Shown here: positions 16,090-19,032 of the stretch, in pieces
Numbering within the stretch: the stretch's first letter is position 1
Layout: every line of letters starts with the position of its first letter
Origin: Mycoplasmataceae bacterium
GTDB lineage: Bacteria; Bacillota_I; Bacilli_A; Mycoplasmatales; Mycoplasmoidaceae
Assembly (NCBI GenBank): GCA_016288695.1
Contig: JAEELD010000009.1
Coordinates: 1-64,000 of the forward strand
DNA length: 64,000 nt
Reading direction: 5' to 3'
Translations under genes and position numbers: made by a program
Notes under the pieces: generated by a model
What the model was told of the DNA's origin: nothing
Databases searched by the model: none
What the model saw: only the letters and a program-made list of their open reading frames with translations

Positions 16090-18819
16090 TTATAACCACT
16101 CATTAAAAACTTTAATAAAATATTTTTTTGATAATTGGCAAAATAATATATATCCAAACGTCAATAAAAGCCCATATAACAACCAAAGTGGTTTTTCAAT
16201 AAACAAAGAATGAAATTTGATTGCTTCCATTGATTCAACACTCACAAATAATAATCCTACTAACAAAATGCAAATAATTGATAAATTCACAGGAAGTGAT
16301 GGATTTGACTGAATGAAAGGAATTTTTTCAGTTCGCAAAACATAAATTATTGCAGATTGAGTCAATAATGATATGAAAAATCAACCTGTGGAAAAAAGTT
16401 CAGGGTCGGTTGTATCTTGTCTATTCCAGTGAAACGCATAAAACATAATAGCAAAACTAACAATATCAAAAATTGTACTAATAGGGCCTATAAAAATCAT
16501 AAAACGGAAAATAGATTTTGGATCTCATTGCCGTGGTTTTGTAAAATATTCAGCATCAACATTATCTCATGGAATACTAGACTGTGAAAAGTCATAAATC
16601 ATGTTAAGCACTAATATGTGTGTTGTTATCATTGGATCAAAAGGTAGTCAGCATGATCCTATTAGCATACTTAACATATTTCCAAATGATGAGGAAACTG
16701 ACATTTTTATGTACTTAATTATGTTACAGAACGCTTTTCTTCCTTCAATTACCCCTTTTTCCAATATTCTTAAATCTTTTTCCAACAAAATTATATCCGC
16801 AGACTCTTTAGCAATATCAACTGCTGTGTCTACAGAAATGCCAATATCTGCTGCCTTCATTGCGGACGCATCATTAATTCCATCTCCCATAAACCCAACA
16901 ACACGATTATTATCTTTAATAGCCAAAACTATTCGCTGTTTTTGCTCAGGAGAAAGCTTAGCAAATACATTAACCTTCATTACCTTATTTTTTAATTCTG
17001 AATCAGACATCCTTGAAATATCACTACCAAGTAATATATTAGAAGAATCTATACCAACTTTGCTGCAAACATATTTGGTCACAATCTCATTATCTCCCGT
17101 TAAAACTTTTACTTTAATTCCGTTTTTTTGTAAAGCATTAATCGCGCTGTATGCAGTTTTTTTTGGTGGGTCTAACAAGGCAATAAAACCAATTAAAATT
17201 AAATTATTTTCATCTTTAATTTGAAAATTGCGTTTTGGTAAATTTTCATAGTTAATGGCAATTGCTATAACTCGCATTCCATCTGAATTTAACTGCTTTA
17301 CTATATTGGAAGCTTTATCTCTTATTGCTTTAGTTATTCGCACGATTTTCCCTTTATATTTAGCATAATTGCATATGTTCATAATCTCCTCATATGCACC
17401 TTTAGTAATTAACTGTTGTTTTTTTTGTTTATCAACTACTATAACAGACATTCGTTTCCTTTGGAAATCAAATGGAATCTCATCAATTTTTTCAAATCCC
17501 AACACTGGATCATCAATATCCAATTCTTCAGCTTTTTTTATCACTGCCAAATCTAACATGTTTTTCAAACCAGTTTGATAATAGCTATTCAAAAATGCGT
17601 ATAGTAATACTGTGCTGTCATCTTTCCCTTCTAAATTTATATGCCTTTCAAGAATAATTCTGTCTTCAGTTAATGTGCCTGTTTTATCTGTACATAAAAC
17701 TTCCATTGCTCCAAAACTCTGAATTGAATTAATTTTTTTAACTATTGTTTTTTGTTTGCTTAGCCTATAAGCCTGTTTAGCTAAATTTATTGTTACTATC
17801 ATAGGTAGCATTTCTGGTGTTATACCAATTGCGACAGCAAGAGAAAAATGTAAAGCATTTAGTCATGGAACAAATCATTGATCACGAGTATTAAAAAATC
17901 CTTTAAAACCTACTATAACAAAAATTATTAATGACATCACTAACATAGTCCAAATTAACAACCAACTCACATATGAAATCCCTTTATCAAAATTTGATTT
18001 AGAAGATTTTTTAGTCAAAGATTTAGCTATCCTTCCAAAATAAGTTGACTTACCAGTATTTATAACTACACCTAATGCCGACCCTGATGAGACAGATGTG
18101 CCCATAAAACATAAATTTTTTATGTCAAAAATTGAACTTTTTTCTGAATCAGTATCATTTTCGAATTTTTCTGTAGGTTCTGATTCACCTGTTAATGATG
18201 ATTGTGTAACAAATAAGTCTTTTGCATTTATTATCCGCATATCTGCAGGTATCATATCTCCTGCAGATAATTTAATAATATCACCTGGAACAACCTCACT
18301 AATTGGCATCTCTTTTATCAAATTATTCCGTTTAATTGCGGTTGTTGTCTTTATCATTTCTTGTAACTTCTGACTTGCTTTACTACTCCTTGATTCTTGA
18401 AAAAAACGAATAAATGTAGAAATTAATAACATTGATAAAATTATGGAAAAAGATATTCAATCATCTTTTTGAATTTCATGAACTTTTAATAGTGGAACTA
18501 CAACAATCAATACAGAAATCACCATTAAGATTAATGAAAAAGGGTTAATTAGTGCAGAAAAAATAGTAAAAAATAAATTACTTTTTTTCTTATCTGAAAT
18601 TGAATTAAAGCCAACTTTTTCTTGCAACTGTTGAACTTTTTCTAAACTCAATCCATTTATTGAACTATCTAATTCTTTTAAACTATTTTGGGTAGATGCT
18701 CTAGAAAAATGAAGAAGTCTATCATGTTCACTTCTATAAAGGTTCTGAATTTTGTTTTTTTGATTTAATTTTAACTTTTTTTTATTTATTGTAAATCCCA
18801 TGCTTGATCGAATTAACAT
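16090..18819 (-). CDS. mgtA: Magnesium-importing P-type ATPase (MgtA type)
   Basis: A 909-aa P-type ATPase, the usual size for MgtA/MgtB, rebuilt from four track ORFs in one frame. Features in order: N-terminal LHFSRAS cytosolic part; actuator motif LTGESEPTE; the membrane segment AVAIGITPEMLPMIV; the phosphorylation site CTDKTGTLTED with Asp at about 378; KGAYEE nucleotide-domain segment; LTGDNEIVT; the hinge GFMGDGINDASAMKAADIG; and a C-terminal helix block including [30 protein letters not shown], typical of Mg2+ importers. Probable promoter and structured leader lie upstream. A small membrane protein follows. Confidence 0.95.
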
Positions 18820-18896
18820 GTGGATTTGGCATTTACTAATTTAAACTTACTAAAAATTTAATTTTTGATAAGGTTGCAAATTATAAAGAAAAAAGT

Positions 18897-18988
18897 GAAG
18901 GAAGGCAATCAAAATGATTTATTATCCTATTAGTTCTAACATAACTTGATATGTATAAATGCACATCCACTATTTGTTGCCCTCCTTC
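18897..18988 (-). promoter_or_regulatory. Structured 5' leader of mgtA, candidate cis-regulatory RNA
   Basis: In the untranslated region before mgtA, the arms GAAGGAGGGCAA and TTGCCTTCCTTC (minus-strand reading) pair over 12 bp with a single G-U wobble, enclosing 68 nt that hold two smaller hairpin possibilities (GATGTG/CATATC and TTAG-AA-CTAA). On the opposite strand the same position would be an A-C mismatch, so the structure favours an RNA made in the mgtA direction. GC content is far above the surroundings. Mg2+ transporter genes often carry sensing leaders, but I do not see the known M-box sequence. Function is an inference. Confidence 0.5.
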
Positions 18989-19003
18989 CAACTGTCTAAA
19001 CAA

Positions 19004-19032
19004 AATATAAATATTTTGTTATATTGTAACAA
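19004..19032 (-). promoter_or_regulatory. Probable sigma-70-type promoter for the mgtA leader
   Basis: On the minus strand TTGTTA (-35-like, 19027-19032) is followed after exactly 17 nt by TATATT (-10-like, 19004-19009). Transcription would start about 7 nt later, just before the 5' arm of the leader stem. In an AT-rich genome such matches arise by chance, but position and spacing agree with the leader. Confidence 0.45.

Follow-up and report, generated by a model that had tools for sequence, protein, structure and literature searches.

In Salmonella, the RBS of the Mg2+ transporter gene mgtB is hidden by helices 1:2 and 3:4 of a leader with the short ORF mgtQ, which carries Asp2 and Glu5, and helix 2:3 forms when ribosomes are destabilised (PMC8092293). 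The leader ORF mgtL is a sensor of the same kind, but Rho-based (PMC11282234). The two Salmonella cases demonstrate this mode of action for acidic short ORFs that precede genes for Mg2+ transporters (PMC8092293, PMC11282234). Genes for Mg2+ transporters, among them mgtA in Clostridia and related Mollicutes, are also under the control of the M-box (RF00380), and in M. tuberculosis the conserved small ORF rv1805A is located in a Mg2+-responsive leader, in which an M-box controls the ORF and Rho terminates (PMC12810186). The window, i.e., the 64,000-nt stretch of DNA analysed here as a whole, harbored a gene mgtA preceded by the following features:

16090..18801, minus strand: mgtA, Mg2+-transporting P-type ATPase (TIGR01524); the longest ORF begins at 18819
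18793..18802, minus strand: 3' arm of helix P2, CATGGGATTT; holds the probable mgtA start ATG (18801-18799)
18817..18827, minus strand: 5' arm of P2, AAATCCaCATG
18820..18834, minus strand: 3' arm of a possible helix P3, AAAUGCcaaAUCCAC; pairs with the first leader ORF codons at 18957-18970 (GUGGAUguGCAUUU)
18881..18970, minus strand: leader ORF, GTG start, 29 codons, TAA, MDVHLYISSYVRTNRIINHFDCLPSLFSL; unannotated; read under code 4
18889..18894, minus strand: six-U run two nt after helix P1; resembles a terminator, but is not kept across the genus
18897..18908, minus strand: 3' arm of P1; codons close to the leader ORF end
18977..18988, minus strand: 5' arm of P1; covers the Shine-Dalgarno sequence (SD) of the leader ORF
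18981..18987, minus strand: SD of the leader ORF, AAGGAGG, within the P1 5' arm
19004..19032, minus strand: probable promoter, TTGTTA (19032-19027), 17 nt, TATATT (19009-19004), from a consensus scan

The closest worked example is mgtQ-mgtB (PMC8092293). Both leaders comprise a short ORF before a Mg2+ transporter gene, a pair of helices 1:2 and 3:4, and the transporter RBS or start in the last hairpin, while an opposing helix 2:3 and early acidic residues in the peptide are candidate parallels; here, P1 corresponds to helix 1:2 and P2, which hides the transporter start, to helix 3:4. A counterpart of helix 2:3 was supported in the Mollicutes family f5 (ORF end with the gap before mgtA) and not in the genus of the window, which revealed a weaker helix between ORF start and gap. 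While mgtQ is 8 codons long and part of an operon, the leader ORF described here ranges from 17 to 38 codons across relatives, lies at the probable transcript start and has its own SD in helix 1:2, and mgtA of the genus lacks an SD. With mgtL of E. coli and Salmonella mgtA (PMC11282234) it shares the position of a short predicted ORF directly before mgtA (18970-18881 and its counterparts, with a coding signature) and, in many members, an acidic or Pro-rich start. Early acidic and Pro residues were enriched over the family and weak in the window peptide, which has no EPDP-like run; the likeness to mgtL is not based on sequence. In addition, mgtL is Rho-dependent, whereas a search of the 89%-complete genome for Rho revealed nothing above the cut-off, with only weak matches of 40 and 30 of 509 bits, which makes an mgtL-type Rho route unlikely. 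The likeness to rv1805A, likewise not based on sequence, consists in a conserved small ORF within a leader that responds to Mg2+ there and may do so here; the window leader, however, has no aptamer and would rely on its ORF, while Clostridia combine M-box and ORF in one leader.

P1 is formed by GAAGGAGGGCAA (18988-18977) and TTGCCTTCCTTC (18908-18897) on the minus strand, which pair over 12 bp with a single G-U (18982-18903) and enclose a loop of 68 nt (18909-18976), exactly the stem described in a first-pass annotation of the sequence. Its further statements on a strand-specific structure and a following mgtA also held, and so, plausibly, did that on a well-spaced promoter. The mgtA strand of 18820-19032 folded with -41.3 kcal/mol (z -2.7; 1/200 shuffles as stable) versus -35.4 kcal/mol (z -1.6; 15/200 shuffles as stable) for the opposite strand, the gene product proved to be a true MgtA (1017 bits against TIGR01524, cut-off 611), and the consensus scan yielded a plausible TTGTTA-17-TATATT. 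Furthermore, 24 clade representatives displayed a 5/6 or 6/6 match to TATAAT within 61 nt upstream of the leader ORF SD. On the minus strand (19000-19032), the putative promoter coincides with inverted repeats of AT-rich sequence, AACAAAATAT-tt-ATATTTTGTT and TTGTTA-caata-TAACAA, which might serve as an operator or form a 5' hairpin. Altogether, the data support a cis-regulatory leader of mgtA that is structured and strand-specific, and it extends beyond 18820, where the first-pass annotation had ended it, to about 18793. It is barely conceivable that the stem arose as an inverted repeat by chance or is part of the divergent plus-strand gene (MBL-fold, 19068): short GC-rich patches may pair randomly and this gene shares the intergenic region with mgtA, but the shuffles, the swap tests given below, the recurrence before mgtA in other genomes and the poorer pairing on the plus strand all argue otherwise.

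An Rfam search across the window detected tRNAs only, and the leader matched no family. In particular, M-box RF00380 gave no match in the window at gathering score, in agreement with the first-pass annotation, to which an M-box had not been apparent, while the same search matched the positive controls, i.e., the Mollicutes loci L027, L209, and L210 and clostridial loci. The M-box and every other Rfam family were therefore rejected as identity of the leader for lack of a match; the only hit at E<=10, to a CRISPR repeat (E=8.8), was considered chance. A DNA-level homologue search resulted in AT-rich noise only, and next to its second match within the genome (C20:11300), a 492-aa ORF runs on the opposite strand, where no leader ORF was recognised.

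The first-pass annotation had overlooked that P1 brackets an ORF, so that the enclosed loop is coding sequence, preceded by AAGGAGG and a spacing of 10 nt before GTG. Among 36 genomes of the genus, 24 yielded a match to mgtA when a strict cut-off was applied, and 22 orthologous leaders were examined, outside of which remained one fragmented mgtA copy and a distant copy (L026, 44% identity) without leader ORF. All 22 (L003-L024) harbored a short ORF at the equivalent place, with peptide starts such as MDVHLNESCSTDYNS.., MNPHLNNNADSDYY.., MDPLTNSSQQDGYDS.., and MDISDYSSQSDEYDE... After removal of redundancy, 18/18 genus leaders carried the ORF versus 0.71 expected from dinucleotide shuffling; the counts for families f7 (7/7 versus 0.41) and f5 (21/23 versus 1.94) refer to sets chosen because the ORF had already been seen there. 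Leader ORFs as a general trait of upstream regions were rejected, since, of the 24 upstream regions in the window that reach 90 nt or more, only that of mgtA had both such an ORF and a strong stem closing it (-24.3 kcal/mol); one other candidate ORF was found, with a weak stem (-5.1 kcal/mol).

The pattern of substitutions showed that the predicted ORF is conserved and under coding constraint in the relatives. For codons 2-14, pN/pS was 0.66 in frame versus 1.43 and 1.23 for the two shifted frames, and differences at the three codon positions numbered 122, 105, and 175, with third positions most affected. Constraint was lower at codons 15-20, and pN reached 0.48 in the second half of the peptide, which is about 50% hydrophobic. 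Compared with shuffles, residues 2-15 were rich in D/E/P (21.8% versus 10%) and Ser (19.5% versus 9%) and poor in K/R (6.6% versus 12.6%), and 36/52 peptides had a net negative charge versus 23% in shuffles. The window peptide displayed this acidic signature weakly, with one acidic residue only and two Arg at positions 2-15, which makes it doubtful that this peptide can destabilise ribosomes.

Purifying selection on codons 2-14 and the hydrophobic second half could also point to a small protein with a function of its own, at MgtA or at another site, with P1 controlling only the translation of this protein. We regard this as very unlikely, as the second half is free to vary and is accounted for by base-pairing, lengths differ among relatives, and the ORF was always situated directly before mgtA among the leaders examined. 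The same coding signature bears on the suggestion of the first-pass annotation that the leader might be a metal- or metabolite-sensing RNA. A novel riboswitch aptamer for Mg2+ or a metabolite, closed by P1, would fit the stability of the stem in front of mgtA, its compensatory changes, and inner hairpins in the fold; its loop, however, encodes a peptide under purifying selection, varies in length and sequence, and is, apart from the N-terminal codons, not conserved in aptamer fashion. Taken together with the missing Rfam match and with arms that track the SD and the end of the ORF in each lineage, this renders an aptamer highly improbable. The suggestion was not supported, since the stem pairs the SD of a conserved ORF with the 3' codons of that ORF; any sensing of Mg2+ by this leader would more likely go through the translating ribosome.

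As nucleotide alignments fail at such divergence, we used a swap test, in which the 5' arm of each species was paired with its own versus other species' 3' regions; all swap and permutation p-values are optimistic, since leaders within a species cluster are not independent. On this basis, P1 had -16.9 kcal/mol with its own partner versus -11.6 kcal/mol with swapped partners in the genus (p=8e-6), and the own partner also prevailed outside the genus (p=5e-9). The first-pass annotation had named covariation in relatives as the check on its stem, and compensatory changes indeed preserve the predicted P1 pairing, the arms of which are the SD and the end of the leader ORF in each lineage. P2, too, is retained by compensatory change, with swap tests of p=5e-5 in the genus and 1e-7 over all. 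When each clade was reduced to a single representative, P1 and P2 both reached a permutation p of about 5e-5 over all clades, while P2 was weaker outside the genus (p=0.02). Because of P2 and the N-termini of relatives, the mgtA start is probably ATG 18801, codon 7 of the longest ORF. An SD was not recognisable at the mgtA start in the window or in other genus members (L003-L024). While mgtA in f5 and f7 possesses an SD, mgtA of the genus does without one and its leader ORF has a strong SD.

Comparison of segment pairs supported P1, P2, and one lineage-specific helix in each lineage. In f5, the ORF end pairs with the gap (permutation p=5e-5 in the non-genus set, one representative per clade), while in the genus the ORF start may do so (P3; p=0.004 in the genus, one representative per clade; duplex of -18.1 kcal/mol in the window). 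P3 may gain in score from the AUGG common to both start regions, and this pairing of ORF start and gap is suggestive only.

In the window, the 12-bp stem is followed by ACUUUUUUCUUU, and U-runs of at least 5 were detected after P1 in 8/23 f5 leaders. Based on this, P1 could be an intrinsic terminator, with the position of the ribosome on the short ORF deciding between termination and read-through and P2 being secondary. However, a U-run was found in only 1/18 genus leaders, that of the window itself, even with a mildly raised U content after P1 (0.50 versus 0.38-0.40), the loop is unusually large, and the conservation of P2 favours translation control. We therefore consider this explanation unlikely; P1 as a conserved intrinsic terminator was rejected, being not kept in the genus, and a terminator role in the window and part of f5 is possible.

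Our preferred reading of the mgtA leader is a leader-peptide attenuator similar to mgtQ and mgtL, in which low Mg2+ would disturb translation of the short ORF and thereby release mgtA. We regard it as likely in this full form; that an ORF-based attenuator of mgtA is present is a still firmer expectation, and for Mg2+-dependent ribosome destabilisation as the signal we see about an even chance. The transcript probably starts just upstream of the short ORF with its strong SD. When no ribosome holds the RNA open, the SD region would pair with the last codons of the ORF (P1), and P2 would sequester the start codon of mgtA, itself without SD; under normal translation of the short ORF, P1 and P2 could form and mgtA would stay low. 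At low Mg2+, ribosomes may pause or drop off early in the short ORF, and pairing would shift so that mgtA is made, in f5 by pairing of the ORF end with the P2 5' arm and in the genus perhaps through the ORF start. Folds computed with a ribosome footprint placed on successive codons supported release by a ribosome within the first five codons in part of f5 (mean change of +0.09; 8/23 leaders exceeded +0.1 at codon 1) and left the mgtA start unaffected in the genus. With a modest effect in f5 and none in the genus, such folding was rejected as proof of a switch. We infer the switching step and the alternative helix in the genus, as well as Mg2+ as signal, ribosome destabilisation as sensor, and the direction in which the leader would switch.

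Leader ORFs before mgtA were also identified in several other Mollicutes families. Peptides outside the genus start with MSSDEWKMIKL.. in sister genus g18, MEVQSSDRS.. in f7, and MSIPSVEQL.. and MASSPLPVSDSPES.. in f5. Across several genera of f5 (L191-L202), the start MSIPS (ATGAGTATTCCTTCC) was near-invariant, at the nucleotide level too. About 20 mgtA genes of genus g14 of f7 (L152-L171) had no convincing leader ORF, with no Rfam match in the four leaders scanned, and the three Mollicutes loci that served as M-box controls carried an M-box in place of the ORF.

Beyond Mollicutes, mgtA loci were collected from a genome scan by protein. An SD-led M[DE] ORF rich in D/E/S/P/G was detected in 20/36 non-Mollicute Bacillota loci (0.11 expected; criterion fixed after a first look at part of the loci) and in 0/29 other loci, with peptides such as MDAGSSNNI.., MDEESSKCI.., and MEPESSRIGIDDDYP... 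Swap tests for P1 and P2 in the non-Mollicute Bacillota gave p=2e-4 each. An M-box was located upstream of mgtA in 11/12 Bacillota loci scanned with Rfam, and the M[DE] ORF mostly lay behind it. In clostridial loci L081, L083, L085, L087, L096, L097, L104, L115, and L142, an M-box, then an M[DE]..S-rich ORF preceded mgtA. Such a tandem suggests two-layer control. Bacillota and Mollicutes peptides may share common ancestry, as read from their similar starts rather than from a tree. Tentatively, and with more reserve than for the attenuator itself, these leaders may represent an undescribed M[DE]xxSS.. leader-peptide family across Bacillota that acts as a Mg2+ sensor via ribosome stability, together with the M-box in Clostridia and by itself in Mollicutes, from which the M-box would have been lost. 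The open-licence literature yielded no account of such leader peptides, by which novelty is not proven.

If true, ribosome-based Mg2+ sensing would be far wider than enterobacteria. Mollicutes have few regulators, and a switch built from the leader peptide's own SD and last codons suggests that Mg2+ import can be controlled by the ribosome alone, while the clostridial counterparts suggest control by M-box and leader peptide that was simplified later. An unexplained hairpin thereby becomes a family of regulators that can be tested and of which nature offers numerous variants.
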